This document shows, in pieces, positions 6,801 through 20,165 of a DNA stretch of 64,000 bases (position 1 is its first letter; each line of letters starts with the position of its first letter). Under the pieces are notes generated by a model. The model saw nothing but the letters and a program-made list of their open reading frames with translations. It was not told where the DNA came from and made no database searches. The DNA is taken from the NCBI GenBank assembly GCA_012031925.1, contig JAAUSE010000002.1, forward strand, positions 1-64,000, given 5' to 3'. This stretch comes from Candidatus Altimarinota bacterium (lineage in GTDB: Bacteria > Patescibacteriota > JACMRA01). The translations under genes and the position numbers were made by a program.

Positions 6801-9489
6801 TAGTTATACATTAACTCAAGATGATATTAATACTGGTTATGTTGAAAATACTGCAATTGCTGCTGGTGAAGATCCATTTGGTGATCCAGTGACTGACACA
6901 TCAGATGCGGGAGATGAAAGTGTAGAAACTCCAGACGGCTTGGGTGGAACTAATTCTGATCCAGCTGATGATCCAACAGTAGAAACTGTACCTCAAAATC
7001 CTGAGATTAGATTAGAAAAAACTGCTGTCTTCAATGATGAAAACGGTGACGGTGTGTCTCAAGTTGGTGAAACAATTACTTACCAATTTTTGGTTGAAAA
7101 TACAGGGAATGTTAATTTAACTAATGTTCAAGTGAACGATCCATTGATAACGGTTAATGGTGGTTCAATCTCAGTATTAGTGCCTGGTGCAATTGATGAT
7201 ACTACTTTTAGTGGAACTTATTCAATCACACAGATTGATATAAATGCTAGGAATTATACCAATAGTGCAACAGCTTCTGGGTTTTCTCCACTCAACGTTC
7301 TAGTAACTGATATATCTGATGATCCAACTGATTTGTCTGGAAATGATGATCCAACAATAATATTATTGATTCCAAATACAACTGTTGCAGTAAATGATGT
7401 AAATCAAACACCGTTTGGTATTCCAGTTAGTGGAAATATTAGTACCAATGATTTTGATGTTAATGGTGATGTTCAATCCATTGTTAGTGTAACTGGGTAT
7501 GATCAATTTGGAGCTCCATTGAATATTCCACTGGATGGAACACCAACTGAGATTTATACAAATACAGGAGATTTGGCTGGTGTGATTGAGATGAATAATG
7601 ATGGGACTTATACTTTCACCCCAGAGACAGATTTTGTGGGTGAGGTAACTTTGGATTATGAGATTATTGATGATAACTCAGCTCCAATTACAGATACAGC
7701 TATATTATCAATTGAAGTTCTCAATGAGGATGATCCAACTACCAATCAACCACCTGTGGCAATAAATGATACAGGAGTAACAACTCCAGGTAATACAATT
7801 AACTCAGATCTTATTAATAATGATAGCGATCCGGAAAATGATGTTTTATCTGTTACTGAAGTATTGGTCGATCTTGATGGTGATGGAGATGTGGATGATG
7901 TTTTGACACTAGGGATAACTACAACAATTTATGGAAGAGATGAGCTGAATAATGTGGTGGTTGCAGGGCAACTTACAGTAAATGTGGATGGTACTTATAC
8001 TTATCAATCTGAACCAGGGTTTTTGGGAACAGTGCCTGCTATTTATACAATTGAGGATGTGGAAGGGCTTGATGATACTGCAACCCTTGAAATTAATGTG
8101 GTATCAACAACATCTAATGCAACCTTTGCAAATGATGATGTAGAGATTGGTGAGTCAGGAGAGCCACTTACAGGAAATGTTTTGGATAATGATTCTGATC
8201 TCGAAGGTGATAATCAGATTGTTGAGAGTGCTAAAGATTTTCAAGGAAATACGTTGATATTTGGATTGCCTAATACTTTACCTAGTGGAGGTGTTATAAC
8301 AATTAATATGGATGGAAGTTTTGTTTATACACCGGATCCAGAGTTTGTTGGAACTGAGTTTATTGAATATCAAAAATGCGATGATGGTTTTCCTCAAGCA
8401 TGTAGTGTAGCAACATTATATTTGACAACCTTAGAGCCAAAAGATCCTGGCATAACAATTGATAAGACCCTTTATCTTGGACATGATAGTGGTGTCTTGT
8501 GTGGAGTATCATCTCAAGATGAAGTTATAGTAATTGATTCAACAAGATCTGACACTGATGTAACATATTGTTTTGAGGTAGAAAATACTGGCGAGACTTA
8601 TCTTGGATTGGTTGAAGTGACTGACGCAGTTCTTGGAATTGATCAAGATGATATGAGTATTCTTAGTGGGTCAACTCCAATTGCTCCAGGAGATACTTTG
8701 ATATATTATTATGAATATGTAACCAATACGAGTGTAGATAATGATGCAACTGTGAGAGCTACTATTACAGATGAGAATGAAAATATAATTGAATATAACT
8801 GTGAACTTCTTCTTCTTGATTTTGTTCCAAGCACTAGTTGTCCTGTAATGGCAGAAGATGATTTGGCTCTTTTGATTTATGTGTACGATCCTCCATTTGG
8901 AATCAAAACTGGAACTTATGATGGTAATAATATAATTAACTGGAATATGGTTTGGATAAATGACTCTAATTATAGTGCTAATGGTGTGGTTATAACAGAC
9001 GAAATTGCAGAAAACACTCAATTCTTTGGTAATTTGGAGTGTGTTGGTGAAGGTGTAACTGTGGTGAATAGTTGTGAATATGAAGCTCCTAGTCCAACTT
9101 ACCCAAGAGGAAGGGTAATAGTTAATGCTGATATTGGTCCTGATCTTGGTGGAACAAGTCAATTAGATTCAGTCAATGAATTAGTAATTAGCTTTGATGT
9201 TTTGATTAATGATACAACTGGAGGAACAGTTTATGAGAACCAAGCATTCTTGGAATATGATGTTGATAACGATGGTATACCTGAGTTTGTGGTTCCAACT
9301 AATGATCCATTAACAACTCAAGGTTTGGATTCAACAAGCGTAGTTATTCCTGAATTGAGTTTGCTTAGAACTGGAGGTGTGCTCAAAAACTCTTCTGTTA
9401 TGGCCGCGATGATGTTCTTAGTTGCTGGTGTAATGCTTGGTGGTGTTTCATTATCGAGTCTAAAAAATAGTTCCAAAATTGGATTTTAA
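3803..9489 (+). CDS. Giant vWA / DUF11 / Ig-like repeat surface protein (one frame break)
   Basis: About 1,895 residues when joined. The N-terminus is a signal-anchor ([20 protein letters not shown]). A von Willebrand A-like domain follows, with a DESGS MIDAS-type motif near residue 50 and LLTDAS further on. Then come DUF11-type repeats ([38 protein letters not shown]) and Ig/cadherin-like repeats rich in NDSD and [10 protein letters not shown], the latter plausible Ca2+ sites. The C-terminus reads LLRTGG, a hydrophobic helix and a short Lys tail, resembling a sortase-type or membrane anchor. The frame breaks near 4797; one extra base (for example T in the TT at 4799-4800) restores it. The ATG at 3803 fits the promoter just upstream. 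Likely a cell-surface adhesin or matrix protein. Confidence 0.8.
5491..8435 (+). repeat. Two copies of a ~1.07 kb three-domain Ig-like module inside the surface protein
   Basis: The block at about 5491-6570 (starting at [13 protein letters not shown]) recurs at about 7366-8435 (starting at [13 protein letters not shown]), offset by about 1,875 bases. Each block has three Ig/cadherin-like domains in the same order: an NTT-DDINQTP domain, a domain with [11 protein letters not shown], and a domain with GNVLDND / LPSGG / [10 protein letters not shown]. Two DUF11 domains lie between them. The blocks have diverged but align along their full length, so this is an old segmental duplication within the gene. 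Confidence 0.75.
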
Positions 9490-9490
9490 G

Positions 9491-9740
9491 AATAATAGAA
9501 ATAAGTAATCGTAGTACAGTTGGAGTTACTTGAGTTTGTTTTTGATTTGTGTATATCTTTGAGAAGTTTCTATGCTAACGAAAACTGATAACAAACTAAT
9601 TCCAAACATTTCTATGAACTCTTCAATAACTATTAGTATATTATATATAGTTGGATGAACCCAAGCAGTAGATATATACTCAAGAAGTATGACTAATGCA
9701 AAGCATAAGAAGGTTGTGAGAAGATAGATGTTTCTTTTTG
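9491..9740 (-). pseudogene. Truncated copy of the downstream membrane-protein gene (3' part only)
   Basis: These 250 bases match 11505-11754 with only about three substitutions and the same orientation. The matching segment covers the C-terminal ~70 codons of the minus-strand membrane protein plus about 35 bases beyond its stop. There is no start or N-terminal part, so it is a non-functional fragment. From 9741 to 9898 there is no coding sequence, only AT-rich DNA with a possible TTGACA box near 9829 ahead of the next gene. Confidence 0.85.
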
Positions 9741-9898
9741 ACTTAAAGTTGATTAGAAGGTTATGCAGTTTATATACAATATTTTGGTTTATTTAGTTAA
9801 TAAGCAATGCTGAGTACATGATCTTGACAATTTTTTTATTTTTTTTGATTAGTTATTTGTTTGAATAAATAACTGGTCCAAAATATTTAGGTAAAGAA

Positions 9899-10108
9899 AT
9901 GAGTGAAAAATACACGGTTGAGACTTCAACCAATACACCTACTGTAAGTGATTTAGTTGGTGGTTTGGCTGGAGCTTGGTTGTTACAAAAACCCGATTGG
10001 TCTGGAAATTATAGAACAACTATTACGGATAATGATGGAAATGTAGTTGCAACTGGAACTGGTGATACCAGAGAATCTTCTAGGGATGATGCTTATACTA
10101 ATCTTTGA
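9899..10108 (+). CDS. Small hypothetical protein
   Basis: 69 residues, not recognised. It opens with SEKYTVETSTNTPTVSD, has a short Gly/Ala/Leu stretch (LVGGLAGAWLL) and a C-terminal part (GNYRTTITDNDGNVVATGTGDT) that looks like a small beta-sheet. No signal peptide. It lies in the segment bracketed by the 250-bp direct repeats, so it is probably an accessory gene. It ends at TGA, one of the clear cases of TGA as a stop here. Confidence 0.5.
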   Translation: MSEKYTVETSTNTPTVSDLVGGLAGAWLLQKPDWSGNYRTTITDNDGNVVATGTGDTRESSRDDAYTNL

Positions 10109-10265
10109 ACTAATCATATTAAATTAGTGAGTAGAGTATCAGTCTTGATTCTACTACAAGGAACGCTTCCTTGTCTCTAATGTGTCGTTGCTGATGATAA
10201 TGGTTAAATCAGTAAATCCTATCTATCTTTTTTTGGAAGATAGATTGTTTTTTGGAGGAAATAAT

Positions 10266-10451
10266 TTGGCTAATAAAAAACAACAAAAAGAAGCTAAAAG
10301 AAGAGCTTTAGACAAAGCTCGTAGAAACAAGAAAAGTAGAGGTCAGAATCGAGAAAGAAATCTTGGATTGTTTGGAGAAGAGCACTCTAGACTAAACAAA
10401 GGATCCAAAAAAACTGGAGAACGAGGTTCTGGTAATCGTCCAAGAAAATAA
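10266..10451 (+). CDS. Small basic hypothetical protein with TTG start
   Basis: 61 residues, strongly basic: ANKKQQKEAKRRALDKARR at the start and a Gly/Arg-rich tail. The TTG start at 10266 is chosen because a good Shine-Dalgarno (GGAGG at about 10255-10259) sits just upstream, which is rare in this window. An inverted repeat (ATCTATCTT / AAGATAGAT, about 10219-10243) precedes the ribosome site and could modulate it. The composition suggests nucleic-acid or ribosome binding, but no family is recognised. Confidence 0.55.
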   Translation: MANKKQQKEAKRRALDKARRNKKSRGQNRERNLGLFGEEHSRLNKGSKKTGERGSGNRPRK

Positions 10452-10466
10452 TTTACAATAATCTTT

Positions 10467-10498
10467 GGCTGTCATACATATTATGGTAGCCATTTTTT
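10467..10498 (+). terminator. Rho-independent terminator
   Basis: A 10-bp stem, GGCTGTCATA / TATGGTAGCC, with a 5-base loop and followed by ATTTTTTA. It closes the transcript of the small basic protein. Confidence 0.8.
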
Positions 10499-10504
10499 AT
10501 TTTT

Positions 10505-11344
10505 ATGAACAAAGCAACATTATTTTTTGATAAGAGTAAATTTTTAATAAAGTCAGATGTTGATTATGGCTCATATTTTTTTTACTTAATGATAATATCA
10601 GATCAAAGTTTTGCTAAACCAATTGAACAAAAAGTTCAAAATTTTATAATTAACAGACAAGGGATTTATATTTTATTGGAATATTTTGATGAATTCTATA
10701 ACAGTCAAGCATTTATTAAGAATTTAAACCAAGTGATAATTAGTAAAAATCTTTTTATAAAATTAAAGAGAGAAGTTGGCACGATGACATTAGACTCGGA
10801 ATTTCAAGTATTAGAAAATACATATTTTTATCAAAACAAAATCAAGGGTTTAGAATTTCCAGTTAGTGATCTTTGTGTATCGTTGAATAATGCTACTTAC
10901 AGGCAAATATTAAAAATTCATAAATTGTTTACAGTTTCAGATAGTATAATAATTGATTCTATCAAACCTGAAATAGATATTGCGAATGCTACGATTACCA
11001 ACCTTCAAAAACCAGTGTCTGTAAAAGGTTTTGTCTATTCACTCCAAGTTATTACAACTAACAAGTATTTTTGGAGTGATCAAACAAAATTGATTCAAGA
11101 AAATGTGATGAAAAGTTTTGGAGTTGAAATTTTTATTAATACAATCTCCCAAAAAAATACTATTTATCTACTTATTTACTACAAAAAAATCAACCAAAGA
11201 GTTATGACTGGAGTAGTTAATAATTTTGTGATGAAAAGTATTAGGGATCTATCAAAACAAAAGAATTTAGATTTGTCAAAATTGAAATATTCTCAAAGAA
11301 TGATAGAAATATCAAAAATTTTAGTGTATTTAGGTTTTAAATAA
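10505..11344 (+). CDS. Hypothetical protein
   Basis: 279 residues, unrecognised. It is rich in Ile, Asn, Lys and Phe, with no signal peptide or clear membrane helix. The predicted character is alternating beta and alpha (FFYLMIISDQS, IYILLEYFDEFYN, NTIYLLIYYKKI). It starts just after a strong terminator, so it must have its own promoter. It sits inside the segment bracketed by the 250-bp direct repeats. From 11345 to 11504 there is only non-coding AT-rich sequence. Confidence 0.5.
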   Translation: MNKATLFFDKSKFLIKSDVDYGSYFFYLMIISDQSFAKPIEQKVQNFIINRQGIYILLEYFDEFYNSQAFIKNLNQVIISKNLFIKLKREVGTMTLDSEFQVLENTYFYQNKIKGLEFPVSDLCVSLNNATYRQILKIHKLFTVSDSIIIDSIKPEIDIANATITNLQKPVSVKGFVYSLQVITTNKYFWSDQTKLIQENVMKSFGVEIFINTISQKNTIYLLIYYKKINQRVMTGVVNNFVMKSIRDLSKQKNLDLSKLKYSQRMIEISKILVYLGFK

Positions 11345-11504
11345 TAACATCGAATGGAGTTAGACACCTGATAATTTTCTTCCTTGATCAAGTAGTTTAT
11401 AAGTATTTTAGAAAAGGGACTATACTACTTAATTTTTTGATTTCAAGAGGGTTGTTAGTTGCCTTGAAACATATTACCTACCAAATTAATATGGTTTATA
11501 AAAA

Positions 11505-11754
11505 AATAATAGAAATAAGTAATCGTAGTACAGTTGGAGTTACTTGAGTTTGTTTTTGATTTGTGTATATCTTTGAGAAGTTTCTATGCTAACGAAAACT
11601 GATAACAAACTAATCCCAAACATTTCTATGAACTCTTCAATAACTATTAGTATATTATATATAATTGGATGAACCCAAGAAGTAGATATATACTCAAGAA
11701 GTATGACTAATGCAAAGCATAAGAAGGTTGTGAGAAGATAGATGTTTCTTTTTT
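11505..11754. repeat. Direct repeat (second copy of 9491-9740)
   Basis: 250 bases nearly identical to 9491-9740, same orientation, 2,014 bases apart. This copy is part of the full-length membrane-protein gene. The sequence between the two copies carries three unrelated small genes. Confidence 0.9.
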
Positions 11755-12232
11755 GGTAAAGCTTGATTGAAGTGTAGAAGATCCAAATTATAATTGGGGA
11801 AAGGATAATTATTGCTAGCAAGTTGTATAATATCCAAGGTGAAGAGACATAACCATTTGAGAAGAAAAATTTGTCAAAGATACTTTCGATATTGGGTATA
11901 ATTAAAGTGATTGTTTGGTCTAAGTTTTCGTGTAGTTCTCCTATTTCATCTAAGCCAAGATAAACCAATATTATTCCAAGTATTGTCCAAAAAGTTGCTA
12001 TTATTTTATCAGAATTTTTTAATAGCTTTATGAGAAAAATATTAGCAAAACATAGAAATCCTACCAATATGTATTTGATTGACTGATAGAAAGTTGGTAT
12101 GTTTCTTTCAAGATCAAGGTTGAATAGTTGGTATCTGTATCCACCAATCAGATGAAGCAATATAACAAAACAATCTAAAATGAGTAAAATATAAAATATT
12201 AACCAAGGTTTTTGGTTGACCCTTTTGTGCAT
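11540..12232 (-). CDS. Polytopic membrane protein with DE...HE and EE..E motifs
   Basis: 230 residues with about six membrane helices. Acidic/His motifs sit in or next to helices: LDEIGELHENLDQ near residue 95 and EEFIEMFG near residue 205. Conserved acid/His residues in membrane helices suggest a metal-binding integral membrane enzyme, but this is inference and no family is named. A 3'-truncated copy lies at 9491-9740. No operon partner is evident; the gene points towards the repeat region. Confidence 0.6.
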   Translation of the reverse strand: MHKRVNQKPWLIFYILLILDCFVILLHLIGGYRYQLFNLDLERNIPTFYQSIKYILVGFLCFANIFLIKLLKNSDKIIATFWTILGIILVYLGLDEIGELHENLDQTITLIIPNIESIFDKFFFSNGYVSSPWILYNLLAIIILSPIIIWIFYTSIKLYQKRNIYLLTTFLCFALVILLEYISTSWVHPIIYNILIVIEEFIEMFGISLLSVFVSIETSQRYTQIKNKLK

Positions 12233-12378
12233 AATTTGATAAGTTCTGATCTTTTGAGGTTTTAAAAAATAAAAATATATTTAATATGATATCCTATAAT
12301 TATATTTCTAAGTCAATGAGCTTTTTTTGCCCTGTTGACATTTATCTATATACTATTTTGGATTAAGGTTATTATTTT

Positions 12379-12412
12379 ATGAAAGCTGCATATAATCTAA
12401 GGTATGGAACCA
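12379..12412 (+). pseudogene. Remnant of an oxidoreductase gene start (MKAAYNLRYG)
   Basis: Encodes M K A A Y N L R Y G and then quickly stops (TGA at 12415). The same ten residues open the intact oxidoreductase at 16481. Twenty bases are identical and the next codons differ synonymously (CTA AGG against CTG CGA, GGA against GGC). The fragment therefore comes from a homologous gene that evolved under coding constraint, not from a fresh copy. Together with 16481 it brackets the four-gene minus-strand operon. Confidence 0.75.
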
Positions 12413-12431
12413 TTTGAGATGGAGTAATTTC

Positions 12432-13541
12432 TTAGGGAATAGTTTTTACATTTTTTAGTCGGGGATAAATAATTGCTTCTTTGATATCGCTTCTTGCCAA
12501 TATCCAAGTAATAAATCTTTCAATCCCCATTCCAAAACCACTAGTTATTTTATAATTAGGTTGTCTACGCAAATTAATATACCATTCATAAGGTGAGTGG
12601 CTCAGATTTTGTCTAGCAAGGGAATTATACATTTCTGATACATTATTTTGTCGTTGACCAGCTCCAACAATTTCTCCTCCAAAGGAATTGTTTAACAAAG
12701 GTGGAAAAATCAAATCTGCGTTGAGAACACAATCACCCATTGGTTTTTGATAAAATGGTACTCTATCTCTATCAAAATGTGTAATCCAAAAAGGGGTCTT
12801 GATATTCAATATTCTAGCTAGCTTTGTTTCTCCAATGGCTGTAATATCTCTTCCAAAATCAGTATAGTTTACTAAATTTTTGTTTCCAGATTGTTCCAAA
12901 AGATTTACAGCTTGTGTAAATGTGAGTTTTGGAAACTCGTGAACCTCAGTTATTGATGATAGTGTTTTCATAGTTTTAGTGCTATCATTAGAAATTTTAT
13001 GAAGTAAGTTTTCAAAGTTTTGAATAGCTTCACAAAGAGTCTTTATGTATTTTTCTACTACCCATATTATGTCATCAAGCGTTCCAAGTATTTCTGCCTC
13101 ACAGTGATAAAATTGGTTCAGATGCCTAATATCAGGATTTTCTCCACGCATAGAAGGAAGATAACAATATAATCTTTCAAGACCGTTCATAAGTAACGGC
13201 TCAAACCCAAACTGTGATGAATCTACTAAAAATGTTTCAAGATTACCGAATTTGATTATTACTGCCTCCGAATCAGAACCAGGTCCCATCGGCGAAGAAA
13301 TGGATGGGGTAAGCATAAACAAATCTATGTTTTTGGCATCTACAATTCTACTAAAATAATAATCTGAAATTAGTTTTATGTAGTGTCTTAGAATGAGTAA
13401 ACCTTGATAGTAATGACTTGATGTAAGATCTAAATAATGATTTGTAGGATTATAGATTGGTATATGGTAATCAGATTTATCTAGGTGGATAAACTTGATA
13501 TCTTCGTTTTGTATTTGTTCATATATATTTTGTATGGGCAT
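12432..13541 (-). CDS. Asn/Asp-tRNA-synthetase-like class II core lacking the anticodon domain
   Basis: 369 residues with the class IIb synthetase catalytic fold. Motif 2 lies near residue 130 (SMRGENPDIRHLNQFYHCEAE) and motif 3 at the C-terminus (GFGMGIERFITWIL followed by EAIIYPR). The N-terminal OB-fold anticodon-binding domain of real AspRS/AsnRS is missing. Relatives of this shape include archaeal AsnRS-derived asparagine synthetases, so it probably activates Asp or Asn without (or with altered) tRNA use. It is last in a tight operon, 8 bases after the corrected end of the S66 peptidase. Asparagine synthesis is the conservative alternative to a role in a specialised product. Confidence 0.75.
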   Translation of the reverse strand: MPIQNIYEQIQNEDIKFIHLDKSDYHIPIYNPTNHYLDLTSSHYYQGLLILRHYIKLISDYYFSRIVDAKNIDLFMLTPSISSPMGPGSDSEAVIIKFGNLETFLVDSSQFGFEPLLMNGLERLYCYLPSMRGENPDIRHLNQFYHCEAEILGTLDDIIWVVEKYIKTLCEAIQNFENLLHKISNDSTKTMKTLSSITEVHEFPKLTFTQAVNLLEQSGNKNLVNYTDFGRDITAIGETKLARILNIKTPFWITHFDRDRVPFYQKPMGDCVLNADLIFPPLLNNSFGGEIVGAGQRQNNVSEMYNSLARQNLSHSPYEWYINLRRQPNYKITSGFGMGIERFITWILARSDIKEAIIYPRLKNVKTIP

Positions 13542-13549
13542 ATTTTTGT

Positions 13550-14538
13550 TTAATGATCTATTATTTGTATTTTTGTGTTATTGTTAATTGCCTCCATTTT
13601 GATTATTCCTCCAATAGGAAGTGTGACTATTGGTGTTGTATGTCCAAAGTTTAGGTTTGCAATTATAGGAACATTGGCAAATTCAGGTTTGGATTGAAAT
13701 ATTTTTTCTAATAGTTGTTTTGTCATTTTGGTATTTTTTGAAATTTTCCAACGAGAATTCCTTTGATTTGATTAAAATTTGGAAGATGGGTAATGGATTG
13801 AATTTGTCTATCAAACAACTCTGGATTTATTTCTGCATCCTCTTCACAAAGTAAAATACTGTCATGTAAATCTGGCATGAATTCAGTTCCTTGTAGTGCA
13901 TTTAAACAACGCAAATGACCACCAGTAGTTTTACCCATTGCATAACCTTCATTAATAATCCAATGTCCATCATTCTCCATCATAACTCTATTTTCTTGAT
14001 CTAGATACCAAGGATCATCACTCCAATCAGATGAAGGTAAAAGTTCAAAACTAGTAGTATTGTGACAACACTGGAAAAACATATTTTTGGAATATTCAAA
14101 ACCTTTTTTCATTGCCCAACTAGAAAAATGTGGACCAGAATATGTTATCATACCAGTTTTTGTAGTTATGGCATTTGCTACAGCTGTAATATCTGAAAAA
14201 CCACACAAAATCTTGGGATTATTCTTAATAAGATCATAATCGATATACTTTAGAAGCTGATTCGAATTGTAACCACCAATTACAGTTAATATTCCGTCAA
14301 CATTTGGATTTGCAAAGGCTTCATGTAAATCTTCAATTCTAGATTTTATACTGGAACTCATAAATTCATCTGCTTCATCTATGTTTTTTCCAAAACTAAT
14401 TGTATAGCCTACTTCTTGTAGATTTTGAATAGCTGATTGTATAATTGAATCACTTAGTAGTTTGCGACTTCTCGATAAAGCAATGACTCGAATATGAGAT
14501 TTAGAAGTCAGTTTTTTGGGTATAATTGTTTTAGTCAT
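13550..14538 (-). CDS. MccF-like S66 serine peptidase (one frame break)
   Basis: About 329 residues when joined. The S66 (LD-carboxypeptidase/MccF) family is shown by IGGYNSNQLL, the nucleophile motif CGFSDITA (near residue 113), YSGPHFSSWAM, GGHLRCLNALQGT and LLCEEDAE. The SDWSDDPWYLDQ stretch is typical of the MccF clade. The tail with the catalytic His (ANLNFGHTTP) is in another frame; adding one A to the AAAA at 13726-13729 (TTTT on the plus strand) joins it. MccF enzymes cleave the amide between an amino acid and a nucleotide, giving immunity to microcin C-type aminoacyl-nucleotides. That fits its place between two synthetase-like genes. A peptidoglycan-recycling LD-carboxypeptidase is the alternative. 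Confidence 0.8.
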
Positions 14539-14550
14539 TTTGAGTTGGGT

Positions 14551-15597
14551 TTAAAATTTTATAGATTTCTTTATCTTCTTTGGAATTAACTTTTCCTTCA
14601 AGAATTTGCGACTTGAAAAAATAATGAATTCATAAAGAAGCTCATTATTCTTTTGTACTTTTTTATTATTGATGTTTCGAATATAATTTTGGATATCTGA
14701 GTCTACATACCCTAAGTTAAGTGAATGATAGATAACAGATTTGATATATTTTTTCAGTATTCTAGATTGATTATTATCTCCAAAGGGTCTCAATCCTTCT
14801 AAGATCAGTCTATTGCTTGTAGTGAGACCATCCTCGAATCGTCTCAGAGATGACTCTTTTCCTTCAACTCTTTTTGAGTCTACTTGTTCCAAATCTAGAA
14901 TATGCGGCAAATTATACTTTTGTTTAAGAATAGTTGTTATACCGATTGCTAATTCAACTGCAAATGGACCTATTTGCGAATCTTCAATGACAATCAAATT
15001 TCCTACATCCTCTATCAAACCATGATTTTCCACTGCAAAATTGAAGTTTCTTCCTATCATACCATCCATACCAATTGCGTGTCGATAATAATTATCTGCT
15101 TTTGTGTTAAAAAGAATATTTTTTGAGATTAATTGAGAATTAGATTTAATAGCAGCTGCTAAATCTATGTCTTTATCACTTATATTCAAGTAAATTTGAT
15201 TGAGTGATACATCAAAAACGGTTTTAAGTAAATCTATTCCATCATGTAATATTTGGTCTAATTTGTTATAAGCAACTAAGGCACCAATACTAGGAAAAGT
15301 TGAACCCCAGTTTATTGTATTTTTGGTGTCCATGATATTTTTAACATTGTGAGTTCGAATACATTCTTGTTTCATAAAAATTCCTGAGTTTGGAATAATT
15401 TGGTTGGCAAGATATGGCTTGAAAACACTAATATGCGAACCGATGAATCTGACAGTTGGGTCGATATTGGAAGTTATAGGTACTTCTGGTATTTCTTGAT
15501 AATTTTTGGATGTAAAGAATTCACGAATATTTTCGATTTTTTTCTCTATCTCTACTTTATAATCTATTGATTGATGGTGTTTGTTAATTTCAAGCAT
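14551..15597 (-). CDS. AlaRS-like catalytic core (stand-alone paralogue)
   Basis: 348 residues. The N-terminal half follows the alanyl-tRNA synthetase core: IREFF near residue 23, PITSNIDPTVRFIG-H---FKPYL, and a motif 2 region MKQECIRTHN corresponding to Q-CIR in AlaRS. The segment FDVSLNQIYLNISDKDID and, later, LEGLRPFGDNNQSRILKKYI recall the AlaRS helical region. The editing domain and C-Ala are absent, and the length is well under half of a normal AlaRS. It is thus a trimmed synthetase paralogue that may activate an amino acid for a non-ribosomal use. It begins 4 bases after the corrected end of the methyltransferase and ends 12 bases before the S66 gene. The assignment rests on motif spacing by eye. 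Confidence 0.6.
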   Translation of the reverse strand: MLEINKHHQSIDYKVEIEKKIENIREFFTSKNYQEIPEVPITSNIDPTVRFIGSHISVFKPYLANQIIPNSGIFMKQECIRTHNVKNIMDTKNTINWGSTFPSIGALVAYNKLDQILHDGIDLLKTVFDVSLNQIYLNISDKDIDLAAAIKSNSQLISKNILFNTKADNYYRHAIGMDGMIGRNFNFAVENHGLIEDVGNLIVIEDSQIGPFAVELAIGITTILKQKYNLPHILDLEQVDSKRVEGKESSLRRFEDGLTTSNRLILEGLRPFGDNNQSRILKKYIKSVIYHSLNLGYVDSDIQNYIRNINNKKVQKNNELLYEFIIFSSRKFLKEKLIPKKIKKSIKF

Positions 15598-15601
15598 ATC
15601 C

Positions 15602-16380
15602 TTAATTTATTTTGTATGTGTATAGTGATAAAAATTGCGATTTTGGTATGATTTTGGCTAAGAATAATCCAATACTATCTTGTAGGATTCTTAGTGCTTC
15701 TATGTTCAGAGGATTTCCATGATAAGTGATGTTACAGGAGAGGGTTTTTCGTTTTGATTTGGTGATAGCTACCCCCATCAAATCGTTTAAGATTTTTCAG
15801 AGTAAAAGTTTTCTGAATCGAGCCGATACCCTGCTATTTTATTGATAATTGGTAAGGTTAACAGGTATGCTTTTAAGGTAGCACCTGTCCAAAAATTTGG
15901 AACTCCAAAAGACACAAAGCCACCTGGTTTTGTACAGCAAACCATTTCAATAAAAATTTTTTCAATTTGTTCTAATGAATAATGCTCAACAACACCAATA
16001 TTCCACACCAAGTCATAAGCAGAATAATATTTCCTAAGATTAAAAACATCACCAAGTTCAAATTTTATTTGTTTTGTTTTGAACCTCTTAGATACAATTT
16101 GTGCATATTTTAGTGCTTCGGGGGATATATCGAGGAGAGTTCTTGGGATGTTTTTGCCTAAAAGTATTGATGCTTTGCCAGATCCACAACCTGGTTCGAG
16201 AATTTGAGAAGATTCTGTTATCGAACAATAGTTTGTAACATACTTTGTTATACTTTCATAGTATTTTTGCCACCAATAGTGACTATAAAGCTTATTGTTT
16301 GAGTTATCAAATTCATTTTTAAAGACCAATGACCAAAACTTATTCTCATTTTCTATCACTGTATTTGATATTTGTGACAT
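15602..16380 (-). CDS. Class I SAM-dependent methyltransferase (one frame break)
   Basis: About 259 residues when joined. The Rossmann SAM-binding motif I is ILEPGCGSGKASILLG near residue 62. Motif II-like (LLDISPEALKYA) and the post-I acidic position (FELGDVFNLR) follow, then WNIGVVEHY and PGGFVSFGVP. The frame breaks at the A5 run at 15793-15797 (T5 on plus). One more A continues the protein to a stop 4 bases before the AlaRS-like gene. It is first in the four-gene minus-strand operon and would modify the product or an intermediate. The substrate is unknown. Confidence 0.75.
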
Positions 16381-16480
16381 ATTTTTTGTGTAAATCGTTT
16401 TTTTTTGTTCAAGAGATTAATACATTATTGTCGATAAATTGCTTGATATATTTAAACTAATATGATTTGATATTTGGTAT

Positions 16481-17452
16481 ATGAAAGCTGCATATAATCT
16501 GCGATATGGCAAACCCAGTGAAGTTATTGAAGTTGGTGAATTTGCAAAACCTAGACCTAGAGATGGCGAAGTTTTGATCAAGGTTCATGTAAGTTCAGTG
16601 AATCGAACGGATTGTGGGTTTTTGCTAGCTAAGCCTTGGATTGTAAGGTTTTTTAGTGGTCTGTTGGTTCCCAAAAATAAAGTGCTTGGATGTGAATTTG
16701 CTGGAGAAGTAGTTGAAATTGGTAAGGGTGTAAAAAGGTTCAAAGTCGGAGATAGAGTCTTTGGTTTTGATGATGATACTTTTGGTGGCCATGGAGAGTA
16801 TATGGCCATTGGCGAGAACAAAATGTTGACTAATATACCAGATAATGTTGGTTATGAAACTGCTGGTGTTGCGAGCGAAGGTTCGCATTATTTTTTGGAA
16901 TACCTACGAGCAAGTGGTGTGAGTAAAGGTGACAAAGTTTTTGTGAATGGTGGAACTGGGGCGATTGGTTCGGCAGCTATTCAGATATTGGTCAGTATGG
17001 GAGTGAGAGTTGATGCAACAGCTGGTAGTGAAAATATAGAATTGGTGAAATCATTGGGCGCTAAAAAGGTAATTGATTATACGAAAGAAGATTTCACAGA
17101 ATTGGATGAGAAGTTCGATTGGGTTTTTGATAGCGTAGGCAAATGTAGCTACCACATGTCCAAAAAAATTTTGAAAAAAGGTGGTATTTTTATGGCTAGT
17201 GAATTTGGTCCAAGGTTTAGTAACGTCTACCTAAGTCTTTGGACAAAAATATTTGGAGCAGTAGGGGAACACAAAGTAAAGTTTCCATTACCAAAAAACT
17301 CTCTAGAAGATTTGGAATATATTAGAGGTTTGTTGGAGTCTGGAAAATTCAAACCAGTAGTTGATAAAACCTATCAACTTGAGGAAATCGTGGATGCCTA
17401 TGAGTATGTTTTGACTGGAACCAAGGTTGGGAATGTTGTGGTAAAATTATAA
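16481..17452 (+). CDS. MDR-family quinone oxidoreductase (zeta-crystallin-like)
   Basis: 323 residues of the medium-chain dehydrogenase/reductase superfamily. The N-terminal GroES-like domain has VSSVNRTDCGFL, GCEFAGEVVEIGKGV and FKVGDRVFGF. The nucleotide-binding domain has VNGGTGAIGSAAIQI (NADPH-binding glycine motif), then SLGAKKVIDYTKEDF and a C-terminal VDAYEYVLTGTKVGNVVVKL. The zinc ligands of true alcohol dehydrogenases are not evident, so a zinc-free quinone/enone reductase is most likely. Its first ten codons recur as a remnant at 12379. It is divergent from the four-gene operon, with a shared 100-base promoter region. Confidence 0.85.
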   Translation: MKAAYNLRYGKPSEVIEVGEFAKPRPRDGEVLIKVHVSSVNRTDCGFLLAKPWIVRFFSGLLVPKNKVLGCEFAGEVVEIGKGVKRFKVGDRVFGFDDDTFGGHGEYMAIGENKMLTNIPDNVGYETAGVASEGSHYFLEYLRASGVSKGDKVFVNGGTGAIGSAAIQILVSMGVRVDATAGSENIELVKSLGAKKVIDYTKEDFTELDEKFDWVFDSVGKCSYHMSKKILKKGGIFMASEFGPRFSNVYLSLWTKIFGAVGEHKVKFPLPKNSLEDLEYIRGLLESGKFKPVVDKTYQLEEIVDAYEYVLTGTKVGNVVVKL

Positions 17453-17594
17453 ATATTTTAGTAGAAGCTTTGATATGTTGTTGACATGAAATCTTTAATT
17501 TGTAAAAAGTATTTGAAGAATTTAAAGATAAAGAATAGCTATTATTTAAAATAAACTTAATCAATAAAAATTTCAACTTGTATAATTTTTAGGT

Positions 17595-17623
17595 TGAAAA
17601 ATAGCTAGATTTTTCGTCTAGCT
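17595..17623 (-). terminator. Terminator of the small membrane protein gene
   Basis: Inverted repeat AGCTAGA (17603-17609) / TCTAGCT (17617-17623). On the minus strand it is followed by ATTTTTC, just downstream of the stop at 17637. Confidence 0.65.
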
Positions 17624-17636
17624 TGTGGGTATCAAA

Positions 17637-18008
17637 TTATTGATTATCTTGATTGTGTTTTTCCTTTACTTCTTGGTCAGCTTGATTAAGCACTTCTTCT
17701 TGAGAAACTCCCATTTCTACAGCTTTTGTTATAGACATAATTGCTTTGATTTCAGCAAGTGCAATACTATGCTCTAGTTGTCCGTGTTTGATTGAATTTC
17801 GGTCAGTTTGTGCTTCTGAAAATTTGGTTTCAACTTTATCAAATCTGTTATTCATATTAACAAACAGTGCGATAATTACTGTGATAAACAACCCAAGGAT
17901 CGTAAGTAGCCAATTGTTGATTTGGACAATACTAACTCCCTCAGTATTTGTTACATGATCCAAAACTGCAAAAATGTCAATATTAGACATCTCAAATTCC
18001 CTCAACAT
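17637..18008 (-). CDS. Membrane-anchored coiled-coil protein
   Basis: 123 residues. One N-terminal membrane helix lies at about residues 30-52 (NNWLLTILGLFITVIIALFV), followed by a charged helical region (NNRFDKVETKFSEAQTDR...) that probably forms a coiled coil. Not assigned to a family. A second ATG six codons inside is possible. It lies between the oxidoreductase and the methylase module, on the opposite strand to both, and has its own terminator. Confidence 0.6.
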   Translation of the reverse strand: MLREFEMSNIDIFAVLDHVTNTEGVSIVQINNWLLTILGLFITVIIALFVNMNNRFDKVETKFSEAQTDRNSIKHGQLEHSIALAEIKAIMSITKAVEMGVSQEEVLNQADQEVKEKHNQDNQ

Positions 18009-18152
18009 ATATTATATTTCTTAACACATCATATAAATCTCATAATGACAAAATATAATTAAATAATTTAACAAAGAGTATTTGGAAGGTTGAGATATCT
18101 AAGTTTACAAAATTGACAAAACCCTACTTATCGACAATGGTTACAGCAATAT

Positions 18153-19289
18153 ATGCCAAACAACAACCTCACTCAAGCCAAAAAAACCAAAAATGATGAA
18201 TTTTATACTCAGTATCCCGATATTGAAAAAGAAATCAATGCATATTTGGAATATGATGAGAATACTTTTCGTGGTAAAACAGTGTACTGCAATTGTGATG
18301 ATCCGTTTGAAAGTAATTTTTTTCGGTATTTTGTACTCAACTTTGATAGACTTGGACTCAAAAGTCTAATAACCACTAGCTATAGACCATCACCAATAGC
18401 TAACACTCAGCTGTCATTATTTGGTGATGATGTGACACTACCTGTTGTCAAAGGTAGGCCCAAAGTTACTGCCAATAAATTTATTATCAATGAAGTTGGA
18501 GATTTTGATGGCGATGGGAGTTTTGGTCTCAAGGATATTGCTGGGCAACTCAAAGCAAATAAAAACAATGATTGGTCACCGCTAGAAGGAGATGGAGACT
18601 TCCGCAGTCCAGAGTGTGTCGAGCTACTACAGCAAGCAGATATAGTAATCACCAACCCGCCATTTAGTTTGTTTCGTGAGTATGTCAAACAGATCGTAGA
18701 TCATAACAAAAAATTTTTGATTATTGGGAATATGAATGCGATTACCTACAAAGAGATATTTCCGTTGATTAAAGAAAATAGATTGTGGCTTGGTGCTACT
18801 AATTTTAATACAGGAATGTATTTTAAAGTTCCTGATAATTTTACTTATGCTCAAACTTATAAATTTGAAAGGATGAGAGATGGAAAGAAAGTTAGCAGAG
18901 TTCCAGGTGTTTGTTGGTTTACAAATCTTGATCATGGGAGACGACACCAACCTTTGCCCTTGATGAACATGGCTGATAATCGCAAATTTAACAAAAAGGT
19001 AATAAATAGTGATACCGCTTATCAAAAATATGACAACTATAATGCTATCGAAGTCCCGTTTACCAAAGCCATCCCTAGCGACTATGATGGGATAATGGGC
19101 GTACCAATTAGTTTTCTTGATAAATACAGCCCTGAACAATTTGAAATTATTGATATGTGTTCAAGTGCTGGTGGAAGCACAACTGGTACAGTTACTCCAA
19201 ATGAGTATGGATTGAGTATATCAGATAAAAGACCACTTTTAGGAGGAAAAAATACTTATGCTAGAATTTTATTAAAACATAAAAATTGA
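18153..19289 (+). CDS. EcoRI-type adenine-specific DNA methyltransferase
   Basis: 378 residues. The opening (AKKTKNDEFYTQYPDIEKEI, then VYCNCDDPFESNFFRYF) is characteristic of the EcoRI-methylase family, and the catalytic motif IV is ITNPPFSLF near residue 170. It methylates adenine in a duplex recognition site that I cannot predict. The gene is followed after 6 bases by a DUF2806-like gene and then by a DUF262/HNH nuclease, so the three probably form one restriction-modification operon. In a reduced CPR genome it is accessory. Confidence 0.88.
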   Translation: MPNNNLTQAKKTKNDEFYTQYPDIEKEINAYLEYDENTFRGKTVYCNCDDPFESNFFRYFVLNFDRLGLKSLITTSYRPSPIANTQLSLFGDDVTLPVVKGRPKVTANKFIINEVGDFDGDGSFGLKDIAGQLKANKNNDWSPLEGDGDFRSPECVELLQQADIVITNPPFSLFREYVKQIVDHNKKFLIIGNMNAITYKEIFPLIKENRLWLGATNFNTGMYFKVPDNFTYAQTYKFERMRDGKKVSRVPGVCWFTNLDHGRRHQPLPLMNMADNRKFNKKVINSDTAYQKYDNYNAIEVPFTKAIPSDYDGIMGVPISFLDKYSPEQFEIIDMCSSAGGSTTGTVTPNEYGLSISDKRPLLGGKNTYARILLKHKN

Positions 19290-19295
19290 ATTAGT

Positions 19296-20165
19296 ATGAA
19301 TGAAAGTGATGTAATAGGCCTTAAAAAATTAGTCGAAACTGTTTCAAATGGTTTAGGTGTACTTGGTAATCATTTTTTTGAGTTTGATGTAAAAAAAATT
19401 AAAAGAACTGGCAACGCAGAAGCTGAAGTTGAAAAAGAGAAAATTATAAAAAGAGCAGAAGGAAATGCAGCTTCTTTAGAAATAATGACGAGAGCGGAAG
19501 TAAGAGTAAAATTGATACAATACCAAGAGCAGATAAATTTGGAAAATATCTTTGCTGGTTCTAAAGATCTTTTGGAAGGTAAAAAGGTATCTGATATTCC
19601 AGTAGATAAGGACTGGTCTATGAGATTTATTGATATAGCTAAAGGTGTTAGTAAAGAAGAAATACAAGCAGTTTTATCACAAGTATTAGCAAGAGAAATA
19701 ATTAGACCAAATAGCTACTCATTAAAAACTCTTGAATTTTTAAAAAACTTAACAAAAGCTGATTTTCTATTTATGAGAAGGTTGCTGATAATAAGCAGTA
19801 TTTCTCAAGTTGTTTATATAGATAAAGATGATTGTGATAATGGTTTTTTTGATTTTAAGTACACCGACGTCATGATGTTTATTGAAATGGGTATTTGTAG
19901 ACCAAATATTAATTCTAATATAAAGTATAATGACTTTACTAGAGGTGCAATATTTGAGATTCAATTATTTAATAATTTTTCTAAAAGATATCAATATCAT
20001 GGTGATCAAAATTATGTCAGTTTTGGGGTAATTCAATTGACTCAGATAGGAAAAGAACTATGTACAGTCTTGGATCTAGATGGAAATGATAAGCAGCTAC
20101 AAATTGATTATTTTGAATCATTAAAAATTTATCTTAAATCTAAAAATATCATAGAAATAGAATAA
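19296..20165 (+). CDS. DUF2806-like protein in the restriction module
   Basis: 289 residues. It begins KKLVETVSNGLGVLG and has an Ala/Glu/Lys-rich helical part (GNAEAEVEKEKIIKRAEGNAASLEI). The middle contains VSKEEIQAVLSQVLAREIIRPNSYSLKTLEFLKNL, which is the pattern of DUF2806 proteins as I recall them. The C-terminal half looks alpha/beta. It is sandwiched between the EcoRI-type methylase and the DUF262/HNH protein with gaps of 6 and 24 bases. A role in target sensing or complex assembly is inferred only from position. Confidence 0.6.
   Translation: MNESDVIGLKKLVETVSNGLGVLGNHFFEFDVKKIKRTGNAEAEVEKEKIIKRAEGNAASLEIMTRAEVRVKLIQYQEQINLENIFAGSKDLLEGKKVSDIPVDKDWSMRFIDIAKGVSKEEIQAVLSQVLAREIIRPNSYSLKTLEFLKNLTKADFLFMRRLLIISSISQVVYIDKDDCDNGFFDFKYTDVMMFIEMGICRPNINSNIKYNDFTRGAIFEIQLFNNFSKRYQYHGDQNYVSFGVIQLTQIGKELCTVLDLDGNDKQLQIDYFESLKIYLKSKNIIEIE

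Follow-up and report, generated by a model that had tools for sequence, protein, structure and literature searches.

An operon of four genes was analysed at positions 12432–16380 of a 64,000-nucleotide stretch of DNA (hereafter the window) from a Candidatus Altimarinota genome (Patescibacteriota; contig JAAUSE010000002.1), whose bacterium is tiny and probably symbiotic. We think it rather probable that this operon is a small, horizontally acquired cluster making an aminoacyl-nucleotide mimic of an aminoacyl-adenylate, with self-protection of the MccF type; an N-aminoacyl phosphoramidate of the agrocin 84/phosmidosine kind is the likeliest product. The four genes are contiguous and all lie on the minus strand; their families were assigned with Pfam and NCBIfam profiles.

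12432..13541, minus strand: AgnA-like enzyme (agrocin 84 synthetase family), AsnRS/AsnA-derived, without an anticodon-binding domain (PF00152, 102 bits)
13550..14538, minus strand: MccF-like S66 serine peptidase, proposed to confer self-immunity (single frameshift near 13745)
14551..15597, minus strand: AlaRS-like core, here called AlaC, a proposed amino-acid-selecting N-aminoacyltransferase (PF01411, 34 bits)
15602..16380, minus strand: S-adenosylmethionine (SAM)-dependent methyltransferase of the MTc type (single frameshift near 15790; C-terminus in the other frame down to 15602)

The intergenic gaps were 4, 12 and 8 bases once the frameshifted ends of the S66 and methyltransferase genes were read through, so that both the coordinates and the read-through agreed with a preliminary description of this DNA. 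That description had also suggested that the set may build, and protect itself against, an aminoacyl-nucleotide conjugate, a view supported by the family assignments, the S66 scores and the recurrence reported below.

By sequence, the AsnRS-like protein is homologous to AgnA of plasmid pAgK84 (34.5% identity over 339 residues, E 3e-52) and lacks the anticodon-binding domain. The absence of this domain had been noted in the preliminary description; the homology to AgnA runs over the length of the protein. The protein was 55% identical to a protein of Bradyrhizobium elkanii plasmid pUSDA76 and 60% identical to its counterpart in a Colwellbacteria locus (L044). The class II ATP-binding motifs are retained in the AgnA family, and the residues that are invariant or nearly so family-wide include P84, G88, S89, D107, S108, Q110, R132, E134, E341 and R342. 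Furthermore, the amino-acid loop of AsnRS and AsnA is replaced in the window protein by the conserved motif TTGSISSPMGxGSDS, which is common to AgnA. The AlphaFold model (predicted local distance difference test score, pLDDT, 94.2) gave AsnRS (1x54) and archaeal AsnA (3reu) as its top fold matches.

The archaeal asparagine synthetase A (3reu/3p8t) is, like the window protein, a free-standing AsnRS-derived catalytic domain of the same fold (template modelling score, TM, 0.82 on target). NCBIfam models for this enzyme matched the window protein (NF005055, 149 bits), and the NCBI annotation pipeline PGAP gives its relatives that name. An operon of ordinary amino-acid metabolism, in which such a synthetase happened to stand beside unrelated genes, is nevertheless highly improbable: the score was far under the curated cut-off of 389, the loop conserved in the archaeal enzymes is a different one from TTGSISSPMGxGSDS, and the neighbours are constant across phyla. 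The identity as an archaeal asparagine synthetase A was therefore rejected on its score.

In pAgK84, agnA is accompanied by an adjacent SAM-dependent methyltransferase gene, the MccF-like agnC5 and a resistant LeuRS gene, agnB2 (PMC4392301; PMC5059758). In TM84, the toxic moiety of agrocin 84, an N-acyl phosphoramidate replaces the adenylate anhydride, and the compound inhibits LeuRS (PMC5059758). The window operon has in common with this cluster the AgnA homologue, a methyltransferase (by agnA in pAgK84) and an MccF-like S66 peptidase (AgnC5 is 26% identical to the window S66 protein). The agrocin 84 cluster, however, has no AlaRS-like core, the acyl part of its product being a methylpentanamide attributed to the agnC genes, whereas the window operon has none of the resistant LeuRS (AgnB2), the transporter and the sugar-phosphate uptake tail. 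An agrocin 84 cluster proper was rejected, as no resistant LeuRS or agnC–G genes were found at window positions 9000–20000.

The S66 protein matched PF02016 (120 bits) and part of PF17676. Its profile scores were 300 bits for the MccF-like BA_5613/Lmo1638 group, about 115 bits for MccF and about 54 bits for the muramoyl-tetrapeptide carboxypeptidases (LD-carboxypeptidases). By these profiles the protein is MccF-like and not LdcA-like, in accord with the clade first proposed for it. Over its main frame it was 62% identical to its L044 counterpart. Of the catalytic triad, the Ser of GFSD and the Glu of EEDAE lie in the main frame, and the His of NFGHTTP belongs to the shifted frame alone. Acyl phosphoramidates are substrates of MccF, which cuts their amide bond (PMC3817062). 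Microcin C has an MccF-like immunity peptidase in common with the window operon, in which no peptide precursor was identified; a microcin C system was rejected since the ThiF-like MccB (PF00899) had no match in the genome, which is 81% complete, but was present in 12 of 14 control genomes. The methyltransferase matched PF13649 (49 bits) and was 46% identical to the equivalently placed methyltransferase of L044.

The window genome has two S66 genes in all, each adjoining an AlaRS-like core. The other belongs to a second cluster (L007:7489-11075, G000:C35), with genes for a 274-residue AlaRS-like protein, the S66 protein, two dCTP-deaminase-like proteins and a methyltransferase, the last apparently also frameshifted; this cluster has no AgnA.

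AlaRS was the first match of the AlaC family profile (fragments 1riq/9jdn, E 2e-17), and the alignment spanned AlaRS residues ~6-357, that is, the catalytic core and the first part of the tRNA-recognition domain. The AlphaFold model (pLDDT 84.6) had E. coli AlaRS (3hxu) as its best fold match, with a TM of 0.73. The protein had been described as a trimmed core; its AlaRS ancestry held in both profile and fold, but the core is not all that is left, a counterpart of the first half of the tRNA-recognition domain being kept. At 348 residues AlaC is not a canonical AlaRS: the motif 2 Glu, the motif 3 DxGxGxER and the editing and C-terminal domains are not intact. In the family alignment, the motif 2 Arg and the Asn of the alanine-binding site were retained in all 17 rows, and the Trp preceding this Asn was lost in all 17. 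The motif 2 Glu was lost in 16 rows and the motif 3 Arg in 15, and the motif 3 Asp was changed to Glu in most. The genome's own AlaRS retains every ATP- and alanine-site residue scored in this alignment. AlaC is thus, on alignment evidence, a degenerate AlaRS that has lost ATP-site residues.

A similar protein is known from ascamycin biosynthesis in Streptomyces sp. 80H647, where AcmF, an AlaRS-like protein that is truncated and has lost ATP-site residues, moves alanine from Ala-tRNA to a nucleoside sulfamate, and where a complete resistant AlaRS, AcmD, provides immunity (PMC12945691). The preliminary description, which knew of no described cluster with this gene set, had missed both ascamycin (AcmF, AcmD) and agrocin 84 (agnA, methyltransferase, agnC5). 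AlaC has the AcmF-type layout in profile and fold, with only the catalytic and tRNA-recognition parts of AlaRS, and, going by the published description of AcmF, resembles it in truncation and in the loss of ATP-site residues. The AcmF losses are described as N219Q and D232E; the motif 3 Asp-to-Glu change and the loss of the motif 3 Arg in AlaC agree with that description, but AlaC retains the Asn. Ascamycin differs in three respects: it is a sulfamate, its cluster has no described AgnA or MccF-like partner, and the enzyme that removes its alanyl group, AcmE, is an alpha/beta hydrolase and not an S66 protein. Because AlaC has lost ATP-site residues, ATP-PPi exchange with alanine is doubtful and may well prove negative, and Ala-tRNA is the likelier aminoacyl donor.

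GlyRS genes were seen only in clusters of the AlaC type, in four of four cases (L058, L082, L087 and L053), with two copies in three of these loci. These copies suggest either glycine as the amino acid or GlyRS as the target.

With the AlaRS-like protein as the sole query, a scan of whole genomes found no relatives, and a search of the phylum with it returned almost only housekeeping AlaRS. A phage match was rejected as an AlaC relative since it was a normal AlaRS. The housekeeping AlaRS of the window genome is itself split into genes for a 298-residue catalytic part and a 327-residue tRNA-recognition/editing part, which lie on different contigs (G000:C43, L008:5243-6139, and G000:C47, L121:679-1662). 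N-terminal AlaRS frames of ~310-350 residues also occur in genomes of the same family, and L128:2505-3461 was listed with the split AlaRS.

The scan succeeded with the AgnA family alignment as query. Across GTDB genomes it returned 80 loci, and the roughly thirty close relatives were nearly all from Patescibacteria. Partner genes were counted within 8 kb of 83 AgnA loci: an S66 gene was near AgnA in 59 of the 83 and a methyltransferase gene in 56, while AlaC was present in 15 and a His/HisZ-like core in 16. Because S66 genes are few per genome, the association of S66 with AgnA is beyond chance; methyltransferases, by contrast, are common. The identical order methyltransferase–AlaC–S66–AgnA was found in L042 (Moranbacteria) and L044, and variants were found in about a dozen further loci, with related sets in L053, L056, L058, L064, L065, L082, L087, L111 and L114. 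Variants are spread over other Patescibacteria, Clostridia, Chlamydiae, Actinomycetota and Bacillota plasmids. The gene set, whose recurrence the preliminary description had proposed as a check, therefore does recur in other genomes. In Parcubacteria OLB19, AlaC and S66 are fused in a single open reading frame of 692 residues (L051:11841-13919).

Two further observations concern the spread of AgnA. On pUSDA76, a conjugative plasmid, genes for S66, AgnA-like, HAD and methyltransferase proteins lie at 8961-12746 (L029), near nodU, and the AgnA-like protein groups in a mostly Patescibacteria clade of the AgnA tree. A Woesearchaeota contig (L060, from a DPANN archaeon) holds AgnA, S66 and ProRS-like and His-like cores, flanked on both sides by copies of the 5' end of an adjacent gene.

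A Peribacillus plasmid carries S66, AgnA-like, methyltransferase and AlaC genes together with a complete AlaRS, an MFS transporter and an ATP-grasp enzyme. An Exiguobacterium plasmid carries three of the quartet with an MFS pump, an ATP-grasp enzyme and a complete AlaRS; no S66 gene was present in the stretch read. By analogy, both sets are arranged as in a producer that carries a resistant form of the target, and their spare AlaRS is paralleled by AcmD in the ascamycin cluster.

No exporter and no spare synthetase adjoin the window operon, which weighs against production and would suit a resistance or detoxification island, where the MccF-like enzyme destroys aminoacyl-nucleotide antibiotics made by other organisms, and the degradation products are modified or used by the rest of the set. 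The nearest MccF-like proteins, BA_5613 and Lmo1638, also come from bacteria in which, to our knowledge, no production of such compounds is known. In addition, Patescibacteria have been reported to carry resistance genes (PMC9927545). We regard such an island as unlikely, since S66 immunity alone needs no fixed company of AgnA, a methyltransferase and an AlaRS-like core, and the relatives include the agrocin 84 producer and the plasmid clusters with a pump and a spare AlaRS.

AgnA loci without AlaC often hold another synthetase-like core, either the His/HisZ-like core (16 loci) or ProRS-like or class I LeuRS-like genes. The name of the His-type core (HisC) is tentative, as its profile match to HisZ was weak (E 0.02). 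AlaC and the His-like core were never found together in one locus (0 of 15 and 16 among the 83 loci; Fisher p = 0.028). On a maximum-likelihood AgnA tree, whose bootstrap support was not fully settled, the Ala, His and Pro labels needed 13 changes where 2 would suffice, and well-supported branches forced at least 7 changes each for AlaC and HisC. The selector types were only slightly clustered on the tree (7 of 200 shuffles were as low), as expected of swapping. Given the many label changes, the task of AgnA is likely common to these loci and the core is the part exchanged. On this sequence evidence, the function of AgnA is probably independent of the amino acid, and the exchanged core would most simply be the amino-acid selector; the window AsnRS-like protein accordingly performs, probably, a step common to all clusters rather than the selection of aspartate or asparagine.

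Alternatively, the cores might pass an amino acid to some other acceptor (a tRNA, a protein, a lipid or a cell-wall precursor) as part of a modification pathway. Paralogues of aminoacyl-tRNA synthetases do modify proteins and lipids, AlaC keeps a tRNA-recognition-like segment, and HD, amidohydrolase or HAD genes are repeatedly found in the vicinity. We judge such a pathway quite unlikely, however, since the constant partners are AgnA, which has a named homologue in antibiotic synthesis, and an MccF-like enzyme, and since AlaC is interchangeable with His- and Pro-type cores.

One of the exchanged forms may correspond to a known compound. Phosmidosine carries proline, 8-oxo-adenine and O-methyl groups. 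It is a nucleotide phosphoramidate antibiotic thought to inhibit ProRS (PMC7689648). A plasmid of Streptomyces sp. NBC_01707 (L034, 9974-18116) holds genes for AgnA-like, methyltransferase, FAD/molybdenum hydroxylase, ProRS-like and S66 proteins, and would fit a candidate phosmidosine-type cluster, the link being predicted by analogy. The window operon differs from this candidate in having an Ala-type core in place of a ProRS-like one. In the open-access literature, no paper on a phosmidosine gene cluster was found, and no published account of such four-gene clusters was met, although one may exist elsewhere.

The operon is bounded exactly by the direct repeat TATGAAAGCTGCATATAATCT (identical over 21 bp, 90% over 30 bp), one copy on each side; the second copy begins a flanking gene outside the system.

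12378..12407, plus strand: left direct-repeat copy, a remnant gene start (MKAAYNLRYG, with synonymous differences)
16480..16509, plus strand: right direct-repeat copy, the start of the intact oxidoreductase gene
16481..17452, plus strand: zinc-binding/quinone oxidoreductase (PF13602, 81 bits), 5' end duplicated across the operon

The two copies differ from each other synonymously; they are the only ones in the window and in the whole genome, and none arose in 100 shuffles. Of 380 genomes sampled from the phylum, only 3 had AgnA, and none of 5 other genomes of the same family did. Together, the flanking repeat and this rarity suggest, from the sequence context, that the operon was gained horizontally. 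Gene starts duplicated in a comparable way are also found around some other clusters (L065, L060 and L040). As a general cluster boundary they were not supported, as AgnA was bracketed in 7 of 14 repeat-bearing loci compared with 5.4 ± 1.4 for random points; the window repeat stands by itself.

The S66 and methyltransferase genes each have one frameshift, both at A-runs, their unshifted main frames being 13723-14538 and 15787-16380, respectively. The shifted C-terminus of S66 (13550 to ~13750, the last 65 residues) was 54% identical to the L044 homologue, and that of the methyltransferase matched intact homologues to the natural end. Another frameshift in the same assembly affects a housekeeping gene that we take to be tsaD. 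Because of the position at A-runs, the match to the natural end and the shift in tsaD, assembly indels are the likeliest cause, and the frameshifts in the operon are probably assembly errors. An inserted cluster already decaying would also show frameshifts in these two genes and, as it appears, in the methyltransferase gene of the second cluster. A dead remnant of this kind is unlikely, as the shifts are single, lie at a homopolymer, leave the sequence conserved to its natural end and have a parallel in tsaD; the recurrence in other genomes is unaffected either way.

We propose the following scheme for the synthesis. The AgnA-like enzyme, with its intact class II ATP site, would make the common nucleotide-nitrogen part with its phosphorus-nitrogen (P-N) bond, and the methyltransferase would cap the linker or another part. 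AlaC would pick the amino acid, probably alanine and possibly glycine, and load it onto the nitrogen; the donor would most likely be aminoacyl-tRNA, by analogy with AcmF and its sulfamate. The MccF-like S66 enzyme would cut the acyl-N bond inside the producer and so confer self-immunity. The sequence analysis shows the gene families, how they recur, the swapping of the core and its lost ATP-site residues; what we infer from these is the order of reactions, the formation of a P-N bond, the donor, and both product and target.

Besides the missing exporter and spare synthetase, several points weigh against this scheme. The product and the activities are predictions from the genes. MccF is effective mainly on Asp and Glu adenylates (PMC3817062), so that the substrate proposed for the window S66 protein is tentative. 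A biochemical account of the AgnA reaction was not found in the open-access literature, and P-N bond formation is therefore a presumed activity. The assignment of alanine to AlaC follows from its ancestry, and four AlaC clusters contain GlyRS copies, so glycine is possible; the likeness to AcmF depends on the published description of that protein. Finally, two of the four window genes are frameshifted in the assembly, and the local copy could be a relic.

Elsewhere in the window, near-identical segments of ~300 bp were found at 9491-~9790 and 11505-~11800, 2014 bp apart; the pair reflects a partial copy of the gene for a 230-residue membrane protein (11540-12232). An EcoRI-type adenine methylase gene (PF13651, 443 bits) followed by a DUF2806 gene lies at 18153-20165.

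We advance the wider interpretation more tentatively, and rate it somewhat below an even chance. The operon may represent a widespread modular class in which a constant unit of AgnA, methyltransferase and MccF-like peptidase makes and guards the nucleotide part, and a swapped degenerate core (Ala, His/HisZ-like, Pro or others) programs the amino acid and the target synthetase. Such a mobile cassette would be carried by ultra-small Patescibacteria and a Woesearchaeote, perhaps against hosts or competitors. If true, the chemistries of agrocin 84 and ascamycin, both rare, would be joined in one modular logic, and the amino acid and the inhibited tRNA synthetase could be read from the type of degenerate core, making product and target predictable from sequence. 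The AgnA-like proteins would be candidate enzymes for biological P-N bond formation, alongside a candidate phosmidosine cluster, and Patescibacteria, usually viewed as metabolically minimal, would possess a compact four-gene chemical tool.

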